From positions 620,001-684,000 of the forward strand of contig NZ_SDQC01000001.1 of NCBI RefSeq assembly GCF_004153445.1: 64,000 bases of DNA. The letters are read 5' to 3'. The position numbers and the translations under genes were made by a program. This stretch comes from Allopusillimonas soli. GTDB lineage: Bacteria; Pseudomonadota; Gammaproteobacteria; Burkholderiales; Burkholderiaceae_B. Shown piece after piece: positions 3,679 to 15,531 of the stretch (position 1 is the stretch's first letter; each line of letters begins with the position of its first letter). The notes under the pieces were generated by a model. That model was not told the origin of the DNA, searched no databases, and saw only the letters and a list, made by a program, of their open reading frames with translations.

Positions 3679-6600
3679 TTAAAACCGCCAAGTAGCCTTC
3701 ACAGACCCTGAATGACTGCTGACCTTGCTCGACAACAGCCCATCGTACTGGAGCTTGACGTCCATGCCTTTGCCACTCAGCACTTGAATCCCCGCCGATA
3801 CCTGGCCAAACACGCGCCCGGTTTCCAGGGTGGAGGTAAAGGGATCAGCACTCGTCGGCGCGCTCGCGAAGCGGGCGCGACTGTCCCATTTATCGGTGTT
3901 GGAAAGCGAGACCTCCGCGCTGGCATAAGGACGAAGGATATAGCCGTTCTTCAGGTCTATGCGCCCGCCCAGCTCAACGCCTGGTGAGATGATGGCTGAC
4001 CACTTGCTGACGCCTTCCACGTGCAGATTCAATGCGCCGGCACCACGCTCGTCAAACGAAGGCATGTGTGTATGCATGACGTCCAGGTCGATGAATGGCT
4101 TGATGTAGGAACGATCCATGGCATGGGTGTAGGAAGCACGTAGACGTTGGCCGATGGAGATAACGCGGGAATCACTTTCCGCCTGTACACCCATCAAATC
4201 AATATTGCGCGTGTTGTCGAACGATCCATAGCTTCCAGTCAGTGCGCCCGCGAAGGTCCAGGGCCCGTCCTCGTACTTGAGCGATACGCCTAGATAGCCG
4301 CTGTCACCCTTTATATGCTGGCGATCGTCATCCGCGTGCAAGCTCGTGTGCTCATAAGCGCCCGCCACGCCGACGAACCAATTCGGCGCTATGCTGCGCT
4401 GCGCCCCCATCTGATACAACACGCCGTCGGACTTCAGCCCTGATGTACCGCCGCTGCTGTCCATCTGGGTCGTATTGCCGGAGACGCGCCCCCAGACGCA
4501 GTCGTGCTCGCCCATCCGAGTACTGGCATACTTGAATCCGGGACAGCTCAGCAAGGAATTCGAGAACGAGATCATGCCGGCCTGTTTGAGGGCAGCGGGA
4601 GCTGCCAGTACACCAAGCGAGAGATCATTCAGCGCATTGGCATAGCTTACGCTGCCTTTGCCGGCAGAGCGGTTCAAGGCGGCAAACATGGTGCCGAATT
4701 TTTCGTCGCTCCCCCGATCCCATACATCTTGCAGGTGCTGGCCAAGCGCATGGAGGTTGCTTCCGACGCCATACGATTCGGATACTTCGTTGAATTTCGC
4801 GGCGTCAACGGATACGTTGAGCGAATTGCCGGCTTGACGCGTCTTGTACGTAAACAGCGGCGACTCACCCTGCACCGCAGCGCGCGGGGTAAGTATGCCC
4901 GCCTGCAGAAAGGTGAGCTCCCGATCGGGCATGAGGGTGCTGGCAGCGATGCTGATCTTGCCGTCGAGCTGTGCACGCCCGCCCACCGACAGGAGGTCGG
5001 TGGTCTTCGCTACGAAGTCCGTGGCCACGTGCAGCACACCTTGGCTGCGCTGTATAAAGTCTCCCGTCACTTGCATGGTATCGCTGCCTACAGGCTCGCC
5101 GATAAATACATGGCCCTGATTGGCGATATCGCCTTGTACAAGATCAGCGCTGGAAAACGTACCAAAGTTAGACAAGAAGATGGGCTTGCCTAATACGGCC
5201 AGACTCGCCGAGGAGGCAGAATCTGCAGAAGCAGCCTTGCCCACCAGGTTACCTTTCAAGGAACCGTGGTTCACTATGCTGGTTGACCCACTCCCCGTCT
5301 GCTGGACGGCGGCATAGCCCTGAGAGCCATCCACAGCGCCGCCCGTGTTGATGGTAATAGTGCTGGCGGCAGGGCTGTCTATCCATACTGCACCACCGGT
5401 TTCCGGACCCGATGCCTCGGTCCCGCCTGTCAGGTTCCCCGATATGGTGATATCCACAGGCTTGGGCATACTCGACTCCGTATCATAGGTTTGCGCGAAC
5501 ACACCCCAGGCATCTTTCCCCTGAACCTGAACCGTACCATCCATCTCCATTGTGATGCCGCCTGAAACGCCGCCTGAGCCCCCCTTGGCCTGGCTGAGGG
5601 TGCCTGCGAAGCTGCCTGTGCTGTTGCCACCTAGCCCGCCTGGCGCACTGAGCGATTGTGCAATGACGCCATATGCACCGTCCCCAATTGTAGTGATGGT
5701 GCTGCCGCTTCCCATCGTCAACGAGATGTCTCCGCTGACCTGCCCAGAGGACGGCGCTACCACGCCATCCTGCCATCCCAGTGCCAACGGACCGTTGGCG
5801 GTGTCGCCACCAATGCCACCTCCACCGGCTATGGACTGCAGCACCATGCCGTGCGAGCCGCGCCCTGTGGTAGCGATCGCACTTGGGCTTTCATCGCTTG
5901 ATGCTGAACCTGCATCATTATTGCCCAGGGCGATCGTCAGGTTGCCGCCATGCTGGGAACTACCCGTGTACGGCGCCGCCAGATTGACTGACTGGACGTT
6001 TGCGCCAGGGCCCGCGGACATGATGCCACCACCGCCGCCGATAGACTGTGCTACAAAACCAAAGGCATGATCACCGGTGGTGTTGATGTTCATCCAGGAA
6101 TCCACGTTGATGTCGCCACCGTTGCTGTCTCCTGAGCGACCTCCGCCACCCATTTGCAGCTTTAGCTGCGGGTTGTTCGCCGTGCCGCTCAGGCTTGCGC
6201 CGCTCATCGCTGCCGTGCCCCCACCCCCGCCTATGGACTGTAAGACCACGCCGTGCGAATCGTAGCCCGATGTGTACACCCATAGTCCGCTATTGCTGGC
6301 GTTCATGTTAACGGTACCGCCGTTGCCGCCATTGCCGCCCGATCCCCCCCATCCCAGAACGATGGAAGGGTTCTTAACCGTAGACTTGGTGATGATGTCT
6401 GATCCGACGGCGCCTTGTCCGCCGCCCCCGCCAATGGATTGCGCAAGCAGCCCGTAACTTTCGTCTCCTACCGTGTATAAAGTGCCCTGACTGTTGGATG
6501 GATCGCTAGTCATGTTCAATGTGATGTTGCCACCGCTGCCTGCAGCGCCGCCGCTGCCGCCCACAGCTATAACTGCCTGTGAGCTGCCTTTCGCGCCTTT

Positions 6601-9600
6601 TGCCGTGGAAGCACCGCCCACGCCGCCTCCACCGCCTATCGACTGAGCCACCATGGCATCCGCATGATCGCCCTTCGTGAAAATCGAGCCGGCATAGTCA
6701 ACCTCTACGCTGCCGCCTTTGCCAGACGCGCCACCTGAACCACCCACGGCAACAGACAACGAATACTTGCCTAGATTTGTGTCGTTGGAAGGAGGAGGAG
6801 GGTTGTCTGGCGTAGTGGGCAGCTTGTAAGAAGATGGTCCTGCTGACGCATCTGCGCCCGCATTGCCGCCGAGGCCACCCCCGCCGCCTATGCTCTGGAT
6901 GAGCACGCCATCCGCGTCGCCTCCTACCGTAGCTATGCTGCCTTGGGAGACATACTTTATGCTGCCTCCGTCACCGCCGCTTCCACCTGTCGCGCCAACA
7001 GAAACACCAACGGCAGCGCTGAAGTTGGTGGCGTCCAGAGCGGATTGATCCGCGGACGAGCCGCCGCCAACGGATACCGGGCCGCCAAGATCGACAGTAG
7101 TGCCTTGCGCCGCACCACCGCCTCCGCCAACGGAATGCATGACCACGCCCCGCGATCCCGAACCATAAGTCTGAATGACTGACCCTGCGTCCAAAGAGGC
7201 AGCGATATTGCCACCAACATTCCCCGAGCCAACACCACCGCCCACACCCACGGAGACGCTGTAGGTTTTGCCTTGCGACAAGCCGCCGGAACTGCTGCTC
7301 CCCGCGCCCGCATTGCCACCGCCTCCGCCAATAGACTGGGCCAGTATGCCATTGGAGGTATCGTCAAAGGTCACTATAAGTGCGGATGACCCCACGGCCA
7401 GGTTGACATTTCCGCCCAAGCCTCCGGATCCACCGGTACCACCCACGGCGACTTTGGCACTGATATCGACGCTTTGCGTGGGGATGGATACATCCGTGCT
7501 CATAGCATTGGATCCTCCACCATTGCCGCCACCGCCGCCTATGGATTGCGCAACCACCGCATGCGATCCCTGGCCTCCGGTGAAGATGGCAGTCTTCTCG
7601 AGCAGGTCGACGTTGATGTTTCCGCCATCTCCGCCCTCGCCTCCGCTGCCACCGACGGCCACATTGGACGAAATCGCAAAACCACCGCCATCGGGATTAG
7701 GCGCCGCAACCACAACGCTCTTGTCCAGGGCGCTGCCGCCATTGCCACCACCGCCCCCAACGGATTGCGCCACAATGCCATAGGAATCCGAGCGGACAAT
7801 TGAGGCATTGCCCGCTTGATTGCTGCCGTGTGATCCAACACCAGCTGTGCTGATTGTCATGTCGTCCAGCTGGAAATTCACTATGCCACCGCTGCCCCCA
7901 TTGCCTCCGTTCCCGCCAACCGCAACGCCAATATCGATGCCCACATTGGCTGTGTAATTATGCGCAGCGCCTCCGTTGCCGCCGCCCCCACCTATGGATT
8001 GCGCAATGACGCCGGCCGCCGCGATGCCTTGAGTTTCAACAATATGATGGCTCAAGGTCGCATCGACCTCACCGCCCCCACCGCCGCCGCCCGCTTTTCC
8101 GCCCACCACCAACGTGACTGGCGTTTGCACACCGTCCAGTTCCGCAGAACCGCCATTGCCGCCACCGCCGCCCAGGGACTGGGCTAGAACCGCAATCGAA
8201 CCATCGCCCGAGGTACTAATAGTGCCGTCCATCGTACTTTGAACAGTGACTTTGCCGCCGGAACCTGCTGCGCCAGCACTTCCGCCTATGGAAGCCGTCG
8301 CCACAGGTTCGCCGGGTGAGATCGCCAGTGTTGACCCCCCATTGCCACCCCCTCCGCCGACCGACTGGGCAACAACACCCAACGCGTACTCGCCTATGGT
8401 AGAAATATTGGTACCAACGTCAACGGTAACCTGGCCTCCTGAGCCGCCCGAGCTTCCCGATCCTCCCACAGCGGTGATGCCGGCTGCCGAGCCGCCGTTG
8501 CCGCCACTGCCCCCGATGGATTGCGCCAGTATGCCGATAGAGCCATCACCCTTTGTGTCAACACTGTTGACAGCAACAGAGACTGAATTTGCATCATTGC
8601 TTTGCGAACTGTTGACTGATCCACCCACGGAAAACAGGCCGGAGGCCGAACCTGCCGAGCCGCCTCCGCCTCCAATCGACTGCGCAATGACGCCGATGGC
8701 AGATTCTCCGCTGGTTGACACGTTGGACGCACCGCTGATGGAAACCGTCCCGCCTGTGCCGCCCGCACCTCCCGCACCACCCAGTGACACCAGAGAATCC
8801 GACATCGCACCTGCGCCGCCGCTCCCGCCAATGGACTGCGCCACCATGCCATGGGCATACTGACCCTGCGTCGTGACAGTTGCAGAGGACGCTATCATGG
8901 CATTGGCGCCATCGCCGCCGTTGCCACCCTTTCCACTGCCTCCCGGCAAGCTGCTGGTGAAGTCCTGACCTGTTCCACCACCACCGCCGATGGATTGCGC
9001 AAGCATGCCTATGGAATAGTCTCCCTGTGTAGAGACAATGCTGTTTGCATCCGCGGTGATCTTGCCCTGCGCACCGTCCTGCCCTATCCCTGCCTCCTTG
9101 ACAGCTGATCCGCCGTAACCCCCAATACTTTGAGCCGCTATGCCGATGGCCTCAGCGCCTGTGGTGGACACGCTGGTCTGTTGTCCATCCTGGCTACCTT
9201 TGGACTGAAGCGTAACAGTCACATCGTGGGACAGCCCCCCGTTGCCACCGTCGACACGGTAACTATCCTCACTGTCAGAACCGCCGTAGCCGCCGCGGGA
9301 ATACGCCGTCACGCCAGCTACCCCATCGCCGGTAGCGCTCAGGTTGACCCAATAAAGGTTTGTGGTCACCCCGCCGGCATTGCCGCCATTACCGCCATAG
9401 CCGCCATCTGAATCCATGGACCCCCCGTTGCCAGCTATGGACTGTGCCAATATCCCCGCGCTCGTACCTGACACCGATTGGTTCACGCCAACGTTGATAT
9501 TCGTGACCGCACTTAGATCCTCATGCCCAACAGTCATCGTTACAAACCCACTATCCCCGCCTGCGCCTCCGTCGTCGTATTTCCAGGTAGTCTCGCCGCC

Positions 9601-10644
9601 GTCGCCACCCATGCTTCTTGCGAGCAGACCCACCACACCGTCCGGTGCATCGCTTGTCTGTGTCAGGAATACGTCTACATTGCCGGTGTTCAGGAAACTT
9701 ATATCTGCGCCCGCCCCGCCCACGCCCATCGGGGGTTTACCGTGGCCTGTTGCATGGAAGCTGCCGTTGCCGCCAACTGCCTGAGCCGCAACGCCCCATG
9801 CTCGGGTTCCGCCTTGCAGATTCGATGCCGAGCTGCCCAATTTGACATCGGCGTAGTTGTCCATTTCAATGCTTTGAGTGTTTCCGCCGTTTCCGCCGTA
9901 ATAATCGATGAAGTCCGTGTAGTCGGCACCGCCGTTGCCACCACGGCTTTCCACCAAGGCCCCTGTCACGCCCGAATTCAAAATACCACCGGTAATAGTT
10001 ACCGCAGATGAGTTCTTTAGGGTTGTAGACCCGGCGTTTCCTCCATTGCCGCCGTTTTCTTTGTGGTCTGACTGGTTATAGCCATCGCCACCAACGCTGC
10101 TCACCCCGACCCCAGTCACCATGCCTGATGGCGTCGAGTTTCCAAGTGACAGGCTAACCGAGCCGCTTGTGATAAGCATGGCGCCCTGACCGTCTTGTCC
10201 ATCCCGATGATCGCTATCGTAGTCGTCGCCGTCCGCGCCATGACTTTCCACCATGATGCCGTTAAGTGGCGGCTCGCCACCATAGATCATTTCTTCGGAA
10301 CTGCCCAGGTCGGTCGTGACTTTACCCAAGCCAGTGTCGCCTATGTCGAAACTGGCAGTATTGGTTATTTGCTGTGGTAAATAGAGGTTGCTTAGCGTGA
10401 GCGCACCGCTCAGCGGAGAAGGTGCCGACAGGCTGCAAGTCATGATGCCGGAAACTAGTTTACAGTCGTAGCCCAGATCCGCGTGAGCGGCTGCCAGCGG
10501 CAATAGTGCACCCGATACGCACAGCAATATATGACCACGACGTCCCAGTGCGCGGACCAACGGCCGCAACACCAAGGGAGGGCTAACGGAGTGCGAGGAT
10601 ACATGGCATCGGCGAATATAACTTTGCTCGTTTGTTTGCTTCAT
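3679..10644 (-). CDS. Giant glycine-rich autotransporter (type Va secretion)
   Basis: 2321 residues. The N-terminus has a long basic leader followed by a hydrophobic stretch ending AAAHA near residue 55, a signal peptide with an extended n-region. The passenger consists of more than twenty degenerate repeats, each built around G-(I/V)-(L/V)-AQSIGGGGG-N-GG and spaced about 60-75 residues apart, the pattern of a long beta-helical surface adhesin. The last 280 or so residues form the autotransporter beta-barrel, ending in the outer-membrane signature ATWRF. Cysteines are scarce: one pair sits just after the signal peptide (YDCK and MTCS) and one pair at the start of the barrel (LSCPG and HDCVW). 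The start at 10644 has GGAAA upstream. It is divergent from an AraC gene. The likely role is adhesion, aggregation or biofilm formation; the ligand is unknown. Confidence 0.92.
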   Translation of the reverse strand: MKQTNEQSYIRRCHVSSHSVSPPLVLRPLVRALGRRGHILLCVSGALLPLAAAHADLGYDCKLVSGIMTCSLSAPSPLSGALTLSNLYLPQQITNTASFDIGDTGLGKVTTDLGSSEEMIYGGEPPLNGIMVESHGADGDDYDSDHRDGQDGQGAMLITSGSVSLSLGNSTPSGMVTGVGVSSVGGDGYNQSDHKENGGNGGNAGSTTLKNSSAVTITGGILNSGVTGALVESRGGNGGADYTDFIDYYGGNGGNTQSIEMDNYADVKLGSSASNLQGGTRAWGVAAQAVGGNGSFHATGHGKPPMGVGGAGADISFLNTGNVDVFLTQTSDAPDGVVGLLARSMGGDGGETTWKYDDGGAGGDSGFVTMTVGHEDLSAVTNINVGVNQSVSGTSAGILAQSIAGNGGSMDSDGGYGGNGGNAGGVTTNLYWVNLSATGDGVAGVTAYSRGGYGGSDSEDSYRVDGGNGGLSHDVTVTLQSKGSQDGQQTSVSTTGAEAIGIAAQSIGGYGGSAVKEAGIGQDGAQGKITADANSIVSTQGDYSIGMLAQSIGGGGGTGQDFTSSLPGGSGKGGNGGDGANAMIASSATVTTQGQYAHGMVAQSIGGSGGAGAMSDSLVSLGGAGGAGGTGGTVSISGASNVSTSGESAIGVIAQSIGGGGGSAGSASGLFSVGGSVNSSQSNDANSVSVAVNSVDTKGDGSIGILAQSIGGSGGNGGSAAGITAVGGSGSSGGSGGQVTVDVGTNISTIGEYALGVVAQSVGGGGGNGGSTLAISPGEPVATASIGGSAGAAGSGGKVTVQSTMDGTISTSGDGSIAVLAQSLGGGGGNGGSAELDGVQTPVTLVVGGKAGGGGGGGEVDATLSHHIVETQGIAAAGVIAQSIGGGGGNGGAAHNYTANVGIDIGVAVGGNGGNGGSGGIVNFQLDDMTISTAGVGSHGSNQAGNASIVRSDSYGIVAQSVGGGGGNGGSALDKSVVVAAPNPDGGGFAISSNVAVGGSGGEGGDGGNINVDLLEKTAIFTGGQGSHAVVAQSIGGGGGNGGGSNAMSTDVSIPTQSVDISAKVAVGGTGGSGGLGGNVNLAVGSSALIVTFDDTSNGILAQSIGGGGGNAGAGSSSSGGLSQGKTYSVSVGVGGGVGSGNVGGNIAASLDAGSVIQTYGSGSRGVVMHSVGGGGGAAQGTTVDLGGPVSVGGGSSADQSALDATNFSAAVGVSVGATGGSGGDGGSIKYVSQGSIATVGGDADGVLIQSIGGGGGLGGNAGADASAGPSSYKLPTTPDNPPPPSNDTNLGKYSLSVAVGGSGGASGKGGSVEVDYAGSIFTKGDHADAMVAQSIGGGGGVGGASTAKGAKGSSQAVIAVGGSGGAAGSGGNITLNMTSDPSNSQGTLYTVGDESYGLLAQSIGGGGGQGAVGSDIITKSTVKNPSIVLGWGGSGGNGGNGGTVNMNASNSGLWVYTSGYDSHGVVLQSIGGGGGTAAMSGASLSGTANNPQLKLQMGGGGRSGDSNGGDINVDSWMNINTTGDHAFGFVAQSIGGGGGIMSAGPGANVQSVNLAAPYTGSSQHGGNLTIALGNNDAGSASSDESPSAIATTGRGSHGMVLQSIAGGGGIGGDTANGPLALGWQDGVVAPSSGQVSGDISLTMGSGSTITTIGDGAYGVIAQSLSAPGGLGGNSTGSFAGTLSQAKGGSGGVSGGITMEMDGTVQVQGKDAWGVFAQTYDTESSMPKPVDITISGNLTGGTEASGPETGGAVWIDSPAASTITINTGGAVDGSQGYAAVQQTGSGSTSIVNHGSLKGNLVGKAASADSASSASLAVLGKPIFLSNFGTFSSADLVQGDIANQGHVFIGEPVGSDTMQVTGDFIQRSQGVLHVATDFVAKTTDLLSVGGRAQLDGKISIAASTLMPDRELTFLQAGILTPRAAVQGESPLFTYKTRQAGNSLNVSVDAAKFNEVSESYGVGSNLHALGQHLQDVWDRGSDEKFGTMFAALNRSAGKGSVSYANALNDLSLGVLAAPAALKQAGMISFSNSLLSCPGFKYASTRMGEHDCVWGRVSGNTTQMDSSGGTSGLKSDGVLYQMGAQRSIAPNWFVGVAGAYEHTSLHADDDRQHIKGDSGYLGVSLKYEDGPWTFAGALTGSYGSFDNTRNIDLMGVQAESDSRVISIGQRLRASYTHAMDRSYIKPFIDLDVMHTHMPSFDERGAGALNLHVEGVSKWSAIISPGVELGGRIDLKNGYILRPYASAEVSLSNTDKWDSRARFASAPTSADPFTSTLETGRVFGQVSAGIQVLSGKGMDVKLQYDGLLSSKVSSHSGSVKATWRF

Positions 10645-10865: not shown

Positions 10866-11861
10866 ATGATCGCCTCACTATTTGCCCAGGTGCCCTTCGA
10901 GCAGTATCGGATTGTGAACACGTCTGACGTTGACGAAGCGCGGCAGCAAATAGGCCAGGTGCTGAATTCTTACCGACTGCAAGTCGTCCGTGGGCGGATT
11001 CTTCACAGCCGACTGGACCTGCTTCCTTGCGGACGCCTGTCATTGATCAAGCTCAGGCACGGGTATGGAGCTGACATCAGCATCGACCCCGATTGTCAGT
11101 GCCTGGACGGCTATTACCTGCTGGTACTACCCACCCAGGGATTGGCGGAGTTTCATTTTGATGGGCGTCTCATAGAGGTTTCGCCGAATAAGGCCTTCCT
11201 CATCAGTCCCGACAGGCGGTTTCACTTCCAGGTCAGCCATGATTACGAACAGGTGCTCCTGCGCCTGGACCAGGCTGCCATCGCCGACGCTTGGCGTAGC
11301 CTGACGACACAAGAGCAGGCTCCCGAGATATGTTTCGATCCTGTGATCCCCCTGAGTGCAGCAGGCTGGCAAGCACTACTACCCATGCTGCAATGGGTGG
11401 TACGATGCGCGGGACTGAAGGGACAAAATCTCGCACAGGCAGCCTTACTGGCCCAAACCGAAATGCTGATCGCCACCACCCTGCTGCTACACCAACCGCA
11501 CAGTATGGCAGCCTACCTATGGCCAGCGCCCCCGCCATCCGTACCTCATGCCATCGGGCGCGCCCAAGCCTATATGCTTGAGCATCTGGGCGAGCACCTG
11601 CCGATTGCCATGGTCGCCAGCCAATGCGGCCTGTCGGTAAGGCGACTGCAGGCATTGTTCAAGGACGAATGCGGGCAATCTCCACTGCAATGGCTGCGCA
11701 TGCAACGTCTGCACGCCGTGCAGCAAGCGCTGTCGCAGGACGAAGCTGCCGGTAGAATCGGCGAAACCGCAGCACGTTTCGGTTTCACTCATCTCGGCGA
11801 GTTTTCCCGGGCGTACCGGCAGGCATTCGGAGAAACGCCGCAGCAGACGCGCAGCAGGTGA
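10866..11861 (+). CDS. AraC-family transcriptional regulator
   Basis: 331 residues. The first 200 or so form an AraC-binding-like cupin domain (LVLPTQGLAEFHFDG, then SPNKAFLISPDRRFHFQV). About residues 226-328 hold the two helix-turn-helix motifs (IAMVASQCGLSVRRLQALF, then IGETAARFGFTHLGEFSRAY) ending FGETPQQTR, the classic AraC/XylS signature. It is divergent from the giant autotransporter across a 221-base gap, so it may control that gene, and no other neighbour is an obvious target. The gap contains a small GAAAAA-CGCGC-TTTTTC repeat but no clear operator. Confidence 0.88.
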   Translation: MIASLFAQVPFEQYRIVNTSDVDEARQQIGQVLNSYRLQVVRGRILHSRLDLLPCGRLSLIKLRHGYGADISIDPDCQCLDGYYLLVLPTQGLAEFHFDGRLIEVSPNKAFLISPDRRFHFQVSHDYEQVLLRLDQAAIADAWRSLTTQEQAPEICFDPVIPLSAAGWQALLPMLQWVVRCAGLKGQNLAQAALLAQTEMLIATTLLLHQPHSMAAYLWPAPPPSVPHAIGRAQAYMLEHLGEHLPIAMVASQCGLSVRRLQALFKDECGQSPLQWLRMQRLHAVQQALSQDEAAGRIGETAARFGFTHLGEFSRAYRQAFGETPQQTRSR

Positions 11862-12933: not shown

Positions 12934-13656
12934 TCAACGGACTGTGGGCTTGCGCGTAACCCTTTTCTTCACTGATGGTCCATTCGTCTTCCTGGTAATA
13001 CGGCCCCGACCGCAAGACGGACGCACAACCAAGGGCAAGAAAATCTCATCGACCCAGGTCTTGCGCAACGCCTTGGGTGGCGCGGCTCGATGCATTAACG
13101 CGTAATGCCGTATCAAATCGGTCAAGAGCGACGCTACCGGTTTGCTTAGCTTGCTTTCATCGATTTCCTGGCGTTCGATGGCTCGACGCAGAATCGGGCC
13201 CACCATATCGCCTGCCCCATCACCCATGAGCGCCAGCCGCAGCGCATCGAGCGACGGGTAGCTTTCGCGGAATGCCTCGTTTAAAGAAACTGAAAGGCAA
13301 ATGCAGAGGACTGGGACAAGATCGCTAAGATGGTCGAGATACGTTAAAAGCTCTTGCCGGACACTCCCTTGATCCGGAATGTCTAAGGAGCGTTTGGCCA
13401 GCTGATATTGAATCGCCGCGACTGTAAGAGATGCTTTTCCGTCCCAGCGCCGTGCGAGCACTGAACGGCTTGTATGGGCACGAGCGGCGACCGTTTCCAT
13501 GGTTAAGCCACTGTAGCCATGTTCGGCAAGCTCGGCCCAGGCCGCTTCAATGATCGCCTTTTCCAGTTCAGCCCCGCGCCGGCGGGTTTTCGATGAGCTA
13601 AAGGCACACAATGATTCAAACTCCTGAAGATTTTTCTCCCAAGTGTACGCCTTCAT
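12934..13656 (-). CDS. TetR/AcrR-family transcriptional regulator
   Basis: 240 residues from the ATG at 13656, chosen because the TetR domain starts soon after it; longer in-frame extensions overlap the mipA-like gene. The helix-turn-helix lies at about residues 32-78, with ELAEHGYSGLTMETVAARA followed by TSRSVLARRWDGKASL, where the usual YYHFxxK is replaced by LARRWDGK. The C-terminal domain contains PVLCICLSVSLNEAF. The last 30 residues are strongly basic, which is unusual and may be read-through past an older stop. It follows the MipA-family gene in the same direction after 58 bases. Two matched palindromes in that gene's promoter are its likely operators. Confidence 0.85.
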   Translation of the reverse strand: MKAYTWEKNLQEFESLCAFSSSKTRRRGAELEKAIIEAAWAELAEHGYSGLTMETVAARAHTSRSVLARRWDGKASLTVAAIQYQLAKRSLDIPDQGSVRQELLTYLDHLSDLVPVLCICLSVSLNEAFRESYPSLDALRLALMGDGAGDMVGPILRRAIERQEIDESKLSKPVASLLTDLIRHYALMHRAAPPKALRKTWVDEIFLPLVVRPSCGRGRITRKTNGPSVKKRVTRKPTVR

Positions 13657-13714
13657 GTCCGAAAATAAACGCAGCTCAACACCCAGCGGTACGAGCATGC
13701 GTTTAGCGACTGTA

Positions 13715-14497
13715 TCAAAAGGTATAGGCGATGCCGACAACCCCCTGAAATTGCGATTCCCGCTTGACCAGAGGACTATCCGCCGCATCTCCCAACAATC
13801 GGCTCGCGCCCACGGCGCCGACCACGCTCCACCGCTTATTGATATCGTAGCTGACAGCCAGGCGGACGGACACGTCTCGAATGCCGGCGGAGGGGCTATA
13901 TTGCGCAAGCCCGGATCTAGCCGACTGATCCGCACTGATCCCATAATAACTGTCCATGTACTTGGCGTTGGCCCAGTTCACTGCAACACTGGGAATAAGC
14001 TTTAGACTGTCGGTGATCGCGTACGGGTACGACAGGCGCACGTTGGCCAATAACCCGCGCTCGCTCTTGGTGATGGCCTGGGTAACGGAGAGCGCAAGCT
14101 CAACATCCGCCAAGTGGGTGGAGACCGAAAGCCTTCCGCCAAGCGCATCCGATAGCTTGCCTATGCCATCGGGCACGTCTTCGCTGCGGTATCCGGACAT
14201 CCAGCTTACCCCAGCCCCCACTGTCAGGCTGGGCGTATCAATAATACTGAAACCCACGCCTTTGCCACTCTTCGCATAAAACCGTCCATATCGATAGTCC
14301 AGTATCGGGGCTGGCTGGACGTGGTATTCGTCTGAGCCAACGTAACGCGGCTCGACTGCGGCCCCCATACCCAGCTTGAAGTGATCGCCATCGCCAGCAT
14401 AGGCCGCCTGCGCGGCCGCCATCCCGCACAGGGCAAAAAAGATCTGATATTGCTTGAAGCGGCCGGAACGGGCCGGCACGGGACAAGATGATTTCAT
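13715..14497 (-). CDS. MipA/OmpV-family outer-membrane protein
   Basis: 260 residues from the ATG at 14497, with AGGAAGGG eight bases upstream; a longer frame to 14608 runs through the promoter and is rejected. A signal peptide ends AAYA near residue 34. The mature part opens with LGMGAAVEPRYVGSDEYHV, the typical MipA start, and ends VVGIAYTF, a C-terminal aromatic barrel signature. Family members act as scaffolds for murein-synthesising complexes or as outer-membrane proteins linked to drug or osmotic stress. Its promoter (TTGACT, 17 bases, TAAGAT) is overlapped by two palindromes, and a TetR gene follows downstream, so tight repression with induction by a small molecule is likely. Confidence 0.88.
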   Translation of the reverse strand: MKSSCPVPARSGRFKQYQIFFALCGMAAAQAAYAGDGDHFKLGMGAAVEPRYVGSDEYHVQPAPILDYRYGRFYAKSGKGVGFSIIDTPSLTVGAGVSWMSGYRSEDVPDGIGKLSDALGGRLSVSTHLADVELALSVTQAITKSERGLLANVRLSYPYAITDSLKLIPSVAVNWANAKYMDSYYGISADQSARSGLAQYSPSAGIRDVSVRLAVSYDINKRWSVVGAVGASRLLGDAADSPLVKRESQFQGVVGIAYTF

Positions 14498-14512
14498 GTG
14501 AAAGCCCTTCCT

Positions 14513-14540
14513 AAATAAGATACGAGATCGAATCTTATTT
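14513..14540. promoter_or_regulatory. Palindromic operator 1 over the -10 of the mipA-like promoter
   Basis: AAATAAGAT and its reverse complement ATCTTATTT flank a CGA-GA-TCG core, giving a nearly perfect 28-bp dyad. It covers the TAAGAT -10 element. Half-sites share AAGATAC or GATTC-type bases with operator 2, and the two centres are 42 bases apart, about four helical turns. Confidence 0.65.
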
Positions 14541-14560
14541 CGAAGCACTCCGTCAGTCAA
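14532..14560 (-). promoter_or_regulatory. Sigma70-type promoter of the mipA-like gene
   Basis: On the minus strand TTGACT (14560-14555) and TAAGAT (14537-14532) are separated by exactly 17 bases. The start codon lies about 35 bases downstream with a good Shine-Dalgarno sequence between them. The promoter sits between and within the two operators. Confidence 0.7.
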
Positions 14561-14578
14561 GATACATTTATGTATCTT
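14559..14578. promoter_or_regulatory. Palindromic operator 2 upstream of the mipA-like -35 element
   Basis: AAGATACATTTATGTATCTT has 9-bp arms around a 2-base centre. It abuts the -35 hexamer and shares the AAGATAC half-site with operator 1. Paired sites of this kind suit a TetR-family dimer, and the TetR gene two genes away is the natural candidate. Confidence 0.65.
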
Positions 14579-14727
14579 ATATAATTTCCTCTTCTTGCCT
14601 TGTTCCAAGCCTAAGATGCTTCGGTGACCGCCTTCCGCGCATGTTCTATTTCATCCGCACGCACAGCCTCGGATGATTTAAGATTGCCAATAGAAATTCG
14701 TAAAAAGGCACAGAATCGGAGAAGCGA

Positions 14728-15531
14728 GTGGCAAGCCATGCATTCAAGGTGAAACGAATCACAGATCTGGGCGTGGAGATAGTCGAGGCCGACTCCGACC
14801 GGCAATTCGTCCGGCATATGCACGACCATTTCGGCATTGGATTGGTCGTGCATGGAGCGCAGCGCTCGGCAAGTGGCCGCGGACAGGTGGAAGCGCACGC
14901 TGGCGATCTCATATCGGTCAATCCCGCCGAGGTGCATGATGGCAAGCCCATTGGGGATGGCGCCCGCCGCTGGCATATGCTGTACTTCAGCCCTCAGCTT
15001 ATCGCCGAGAATTTTGCGGATATGGCGGCAGACCTCGGTTCGCGCCCCTGTGAACTCGCTTATCCTGTATTACGCAACCGGCAGGCAACGGTACTGTTCG
15101 GCACCCTGTACCAGACCGCCACCCAGGCTGTGGAAAAAAGTAGCCAATTGCCGTTCGAAGAGAATCTATCGCTGCTGCTCGAACACATGTTGGATCACAC
15201 CGTGTCGAAACCGCCTGTGTCGGGTGCTGCCGCCAGCCGTGCCAAAGCCATGATCGATGATGATCCTCTGGCAGCAGTATCGCTGGCATCGCTGGCCAAG
15301 GAATCGGCGTTGAGCCGGTTTCAGCTTGTGCGTGCGTTTGCCCGCCTGACCGGGCTTACGCCCCATGCCTACCTGATTCAGCGGCGTATCCAGCGGGCGC
15401 GGCATCTTATCGCATCGGGTGTGCCACTGGCCGAGGCGTCGCATGCCAGCGGTTTCGCCGACCAGAGCCATATGACACGCCACTTCGTGCGCAGCTTTGG
15501 ATTCTCACCTGGCATATACGCACGGCAATAG
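14728..15531 (+). CDS. AraC-family regulator, probably of the adjacent LysE exporter
   Basis: 267 residues starting at a GTG (14728) behind GGAGAAG. The N-terminal cupin domain has the histidine-rich opening RHMHDHFGIGLVVHGAQ followed by GDLISVNPAEVHDGKP, typical of AraC_binding sensors. The DNA-binding half begins near residue 165 with SLASLAKESALSRFQLVRAF and ends with SHMTRHFVRSFGFSPGIY. The LysE exporter gene starts 80 bases downstream on the same strand, and AraC-LysE pairs are common in Proteobacteria. The regulator probably senses an amino acid or related amine and activates export. Confidence 0.88.
   Translation: MASHAFKVKRITDLGVEIVEADSDRQFVRHMHDHFGIGLVVHGAQRSASGRGQVEAHAGDLISVNPAEVHDGKPIGDGARRWHMLYFSPQLIAENFADMAADLGSRPCELAYPVLRNRQATVLFGTLYQTATQAVEKSSQLPFEENLSLLLEHMLDHTVSKPPVSGAAASRAKAMIDDDPLAAVSLASLAKESALSRFQLVRAFARLTGLTPHAYLIQRRIQRARHLIASGVPLAEASHASGFADQSHMTRHFVRSFGFSPGIYARQ

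Follow-up and report, generated by a model that had tools for sequence, protein, structure and literature searches.

Two palindromes, D1 and D2, share bases with the -10 and -35 hexamers of a mipA promoter in the window (the whole 64,000-nucleotide stretch of Allopusillimonas soli DNA analysed here), and they are very probably the operators of the TetR-family repressor encoded beside that gene, which would keep mipA repressed until a ligand releases it. On the strength of the comparisons presented below, binding of both dyads by TetR is strongly supported; repression of mipA is what we infer from the fact that the dyads overlap both promoter hexamers. The elements concerned are the following, in window coordinates.

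12934-13611, minus strand: tetR, TetR-family regulator (TetR_N and TetR_C_11), with TTG 13611 as likely start, from domain matches and the N-termini of relatives; the open frame reaches ATG 13656
13715-14497, minus strand: mipA, MipA/OmpV-family outer-membrane protein of 260 aa (PF06629, E 9.6e-56)
14505-14512, minus strand: likely mipA ribosome-binding site, AGGAAGGG, read from the sequence
14513-14540, no strand: putative operator D1, extended dyad, with its core AAGATACGAGATCGAATCTT at 14517-14536, from the palindrome and its conservation at 13 of 15 tetR loci
14532-14537, minus strand: -10 hexamer TAAGAT of the mipA promoter, from a promoter scan; TAAGAT in 13 of 13 promoters
14555-14560, minus strand: -35 hexamer TTGACT of the mipA promoter, from a promoter scan; TTGACN in 13 of 13 promoters
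14559-14578, no strand: putative operator D2, perfect 20-bp dyad AAGATACATTTATGTATCTT, from the palindrome and its conservation
14580-14585, plus strand: TATAAT with TCAAGA 17 bases upstream (14557-14562), a consensus match only

Twin dyads in the mipA promoter

On the minus strand mipA is followed by tetR, and on the plus strand an AraC-family gene (14728-15531) is followed by a LysE-family gene. The mipA product covers the whole MipA domain (positions 1-221 of 221 of PF06629). Elsewhere in the window, a glycine-rich repetitive frame of 2321 aa (3679-10644), which by eye looks like a large autotransporter, lies beside a second AraC-family gene (10866-11861).

The extended D1 dyad is AAATAAGATACGA-GA-TCGAATCTTATTT, i.e. 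two 13-nt arms, 92% complementary, with 2 nt between them, and D2 is AAGATACAT-TT-ATGTATCTT, with 9-nt arms, 100% complementary, around a 2-nt centre. As the original prediction had it, the two have an AAGATAC half-site in common and are centred 42 bp apart (14526.5 and 14568.5); the half-site is equidistant from the centre in both, and the second arm of D1 reads AAGATTC, one mismatch away. The window contains 10 copies of AAGATAC (2.5 expected), three of them in D1 and D2. The search for further sites that had been proposed was carried out on the whole host genome (4.15 Mb in 18 contigs): AAGATAC-N6-GTATCTT with 0 or 1 mismatch is found at D1 and D2 only, the chance expectation calculated from the base composition of the window being about 0.2 per genome. 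When up to 3 mismatches were allowed, there were 65 sites against 62 for a reversed control; weaker matches are therefore background, and the idea of a wider regulon beyond mipA in the host genome was dropped.

TTGACT-17-TAAGAT, on the minus strand from 14560 to 14532, is the sole promoter-like site before mipA and one of two in the 13560-14760 interval. The dyads do straddle it, as had been claimed, and each shares bases with one hexamer: read on the minus strand, the final TT of D2 is the first TT of TTGACT, and the first bases of D1 are the AAGAT of TAAGAT. If transcription begins about 7 bases past the -10 hexamer, as is the rule, the start lies inside D1, which would therefore act as DNA and not as an RNA stem. 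The plus-strand TCAAGA-17-TATAAT (14557-14585) is a possible weak divergent promoter towards araC; it spans D2, which might thus affect araC as well as mipA in the host strain. Between mipA and tetR no strong promoter or terminator was found in the window, so that co-transcription of the two genes in the host strain is likely, with autoregulation of tetR through the mipA promoter.

The TetR-family regulator

The regulator carries an N-terminal helix-turn-helix domain (TetR_N, PF00440, E 6.9e-11, 42.2 bits for a cut-off of 24) and a C-terminal ligand-binding domain (TetR_C_11, PF16859, 33.6 bits for a cut-off of 32). Its predicted structure is mainly helical (mean pLDDT 84), and the best PDB matches are TetR-family regulators. 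The best fold and sequence-profile matches, 2fq4 and the Ms6564-DNA complex 4jl3, are only about 20-22% identical to it and are not orthologues. The gene had been placed at 12934-13656; the gene itself stands but probably not its start, since ATG 13656 adds an N-terminal extension. TTG 13611 is the likelier start because AGGAG precedes it and the N-termini of relatives match there. At the other end, a tail of 30 residues of basic character follows FLPLV (12937-13026, minus strand); it is far longer than in most of the aligned relatives.

Conservation of the twin dyads with tetR

The motif was fixed from the window alone and then tested, out of sample, on other genomes. Relatives of tetR (E<=1e-15) amount to 15 genes, one of them split in two pieces, in 14 of 268 genomes of the same family, window included. 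Twin dyads, defined as two dyads each scoring at least 11 of 14 and lying 42-43 bp apart, are present at 13 of the 15. All 13 are fused to a -35 TTGACN and a -10 TAAGAT; the dyads are 42 bp apart in seven cases, every one with a 17-bp promoter spacer, and 43 bp apart in six, every one with an 18-bp spacer. The gene behind them is mipA in 12 and, in one (the second copy of G002), a vestige of mipA joined to an MlaA gene. The two remaining tetR homologues, in G211 and G218, have neither dyads nor an adjacent mipA in the stretches read, which suggests either that the regulator is not always tied to an operator of the D1/D2 type or that the site differs there.

The consensus operator is AAGATNC-N6-GNATCTT. 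Over the 13 promoters the two dyads average 1.46 and 1.42 bits per column, against 0.54 for the 20-base flanks and 0.78 for the spacer (values without small-sample correction); the -35 bases GAC and the -10 base T supply most of the spacer information. All 52 half-sites have A at position 1 and C at position 7, and position 6 is unconstrained (31 A, 13 T, 7 G, 1 C). All four half-sites of G001 read AAGATGC, a concerted change such as is expected if one protein reads all four.

The orientation and distance of tetR vary. That it follows the regulated gene, as originally noted, is right for the window but is not the usual layout: mipA and tetR are convergent in 10 of the 13 modules. At 8 of the 15 loci, tetR itself has just one dyad of this type in front of it, which suggests autoregulation; in the window's genus, none of the five tetR genes is preceded by a dyad of at least 11 of 14 (G001 and G004 have 10 of 14).

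Two loci are altered. At one (L102, G106:C1:4162663-4163267), tetR is in two frames, reflecting either a broken regulator or a sequencing error, and the twin dyads and mipA are kept. The other is the second copy of G002 (L010, positions 4735-6024, G002:C31), from Allopusillimonas ginsengisoli (Alcaligenaceae), of the same genus as the window: the mipA leader and a short internal piece, with most of the barrel deleted, run in frame into an MlaA lipoprotein gene (PF04333, E 6.1e-66), so that MlaA has apparently been brought under the twin-operator promoter. MlaA was rejected as an alternative target, because the frame starts with the deleted mipA remnant and the operator therefore belonged to mipA.

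Control searches

MipA-family genes are present in 102 of the 268 genomes. Twenty stretches upstream of other mipA genes, 9 of them from additional mipA copies in genomes that carry tetR and 11 from genomes that do not, contain no twin dyads; the weaker dyad scores 8 at best, and in one stretch (L134) a 12-of-14 dyad stands alone. The operator is thus kept with the regulator (13 of 15 tetR loci) and absent without it (0 of 20 control stretches), and it is a palindrome overlapping the promoter of its target. Taken with the lack of an AraC homologue in all 12 other modules (see below), these counts support the original proposal that the adjacent TetR has its operators in the dyads and mipA as its target.

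A scan of the 268 genomes for the strict fused pattern ATCTTGAC-N18..20-AAGATNC-N6-G returned 10 matches, spread over 9 genomes, and none for the reversed control. Eight of the 10 are at tetR loci; at the other two (G110:C14 and G035:C72) the upstream dyad is absent (scores of 4 and 3 of 14). The pattern misses the five promoters of genus g58, where D2 ends in GTACTTT. G003 is the one member of the window's genus that has neither tetR nor mipA. It has two related dyads (1 and 2 mismatches) 112 bp apart (G003:C23:303967-304098), possibly the site of another regulator.

Alternative readings of the dyads

The separation of about four helical turns had been taken as a sign of cooperative binding by two TetR dimers to the same face of the helix. 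Such cooperativity would be an addition to the main reading, not its opposite, and we consider it rather doubtful. The spacing is indeed 42 or 43 bp in 13 of 13 twins, which is near four turns and makes the dyads face about the same way. However, it tracks the promoter spacer in every one of the 13: since the dyads are fused to the hexamers, promoter geometry alone gives the phase, and four turns cannot be read as evidence of cooperativity. The facing gap of 22-23 bp between the dyads and the 45-bp separation of the Nocardioides pair (see below) also speak against it.

That the dyads are bound by the divergent AraC-family regulator is very unlikely. Its gene lies in divergent orientation to mipA across the same intergenic region, and the plus-strand TATAAT beside D2 could serve it, but AraC proteins usually bind direct repeats, and no AraC homologue (E<=1e-5) was found in the 3.3- to 9-kb stretches searched at 13 loci, which stand for the other 12 modules with twin dyads (one module is represented twice) and all contain tetR. 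Still less credible are RNA hairpins acting as terminator or attenuator of mipA or araC. In their favour, both dyads are inverted repeats; against them, a search for terminator-like sites found none at the dyads, the genes flanking the region are divergent, neither dyad would be transcribed whole from the mipA promoter (D2 is upstream of it and the inferred start is inside D1), and what is conserved is the sequence and its fusion to the promoter hexamers. Chance can practically be dismissed: short palindromes are common in AT-rich promoters, and the genome count at 3 mismatches equals that of the control, but chance hardly accounts for a single promoter holding two near-perfect sites that are unique in the genome, or for the recurrence of the pair at 13 of 15 loci when 0 of 20 controls show it. 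These last three explanations were all rejected, in favour of TetR as the protein that very probably reads the dyads.

Distribution beyond the family

In a 369-genome sample of the class, TetR relatives (E<=1e-15) were found in the host genome only. Among 61 TetR loci scanned for dyads of at least 11 of 14, only the G002 locus already described (L010) and a Nocardioides locus (L018) had any. The 59 others were without, and their twin count, over 458,213 bases, was 0; the operator is therefore not general in this TetR subfamily. In Nocardioides the homologue is 42% identical by the search and 39% by the alignment. Its gene and a divergent MFS gene are separated by 70 bp, and at this gap lie two dyads that score 12 of 14 each and are set 45 bp apart; the second extends across the listed tetR start codon. 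As one case in 60 distant loci, a shared operator there is suggestive only. Within the family, G229 has an MFS gene between mipA and tetR.

Discussion

Occlusion of RNA polymerase is the simplest reading of an overlap with both hexamers, an overlap that argues against activation by TetR. Without ligand, TetR dimers would sit on D2, which provides the first TT of the -35, and on D1, which includes the -10 bases AAGAT and lies over the predicted start site, and RNA polymerase would be blocked. A small molecule lodged in the C-terminal domain would release TetR and switch MipA on, inducibility being the normal expectation for a TetR-family regulator. In the host strain, where tetR is probably co-transcribed downstream of mipA, the repressor would then limit its own synthesis; in relatives outside the genus, autoregulation may operate instead via the single operator before tetR.

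Control by twin operators of a TetR-type repressor is of a textbook kind. As with TetR on tetO1/tetO2 and with QacR, palindromic operators overlap the promoter hexamers and adjoin the repressor gene, repression would be steric and release by a ligand is expected; here, unlike there, the target is outer-membrane MipA and not an efflux pump, the operator sequence is another one, and the operators are each fused to a hexamer of their own. SmvR/SmvA of Enterobacteriaceae, as presented in the available passages of PMC6362122, likewise combines a TetR regulator with palindromic dyads in the target promoter, a likeness by description and not by comparison of sequences. Its MFS target, SmvA, is comparable to the MFS gene of the Nocardioides homologue and to that beside mipA in G229; it differs from the present case in that smvAR is a divergent pair and that mipA appears, in those passages, only as a separate mutated gene (PMC6362122). 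The mipBA operon, polymyxin-induced under ParR/ParS, involves the same target protein family, and mipA is inducible there too, but under a two-component system instead of a one-component TetR regulator (PMC10936184, available passages). In that work's screen of mipA neighbours, a two-component system lies beside mipA in most loci, and the passages seen make no mention of a TetR regulator (PMC10936184). Our own literature search, of partial coverage and with most subscription papers outside it, returned no report of TetR control of mipA. What appears to be new is mipA as the probable target of TetR twin operators; the operator arrangement itself is known, and the switch is of an ordinary kind.

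According to the passages available, a MipA protein elsewhere binds polymyxins (PMC10936184) and mipA mutations accompany chlorhexidine tolerance (PMC12304739); these two observations make a membrane-active TetR ligand a reasonable guess, but only a guess. For MipA, which the same passages tie to polymyxin sensing and to chlorhexidine tolerance (PMC10936184, PMC12304739), the present work offers a regulator, an operator sequence and a target that can be put to the test, and the identity of the ligand would tell which chemical met by these bacteria calls for MipA. On the practical side, the AAGATNC-N6-GNATCTT twin promoter is specific enough for detecting the module in raw genomes, and the locked 42/43-bp spacing is a caution against inferring cooperativity from helical phase alone. 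A broader view, which we put forward tentatively and think somewhat more likely to fail than to hold, is that this family of bacteria possesses a dedicated TetR-MipA module, where a one-component cytoplasmic sensor would replace the two-component control described for MipA elsewhere, where operators hard-wired into the -35 and -10 could not evolve apart from the promoter, and whose operator code would recur in actinobacteria, before the MFS pump gene of Nocardioides. If true, this would suggest an old envelope- or drug-response regulator whose target has changed between a pump and an outer-membrane protein.
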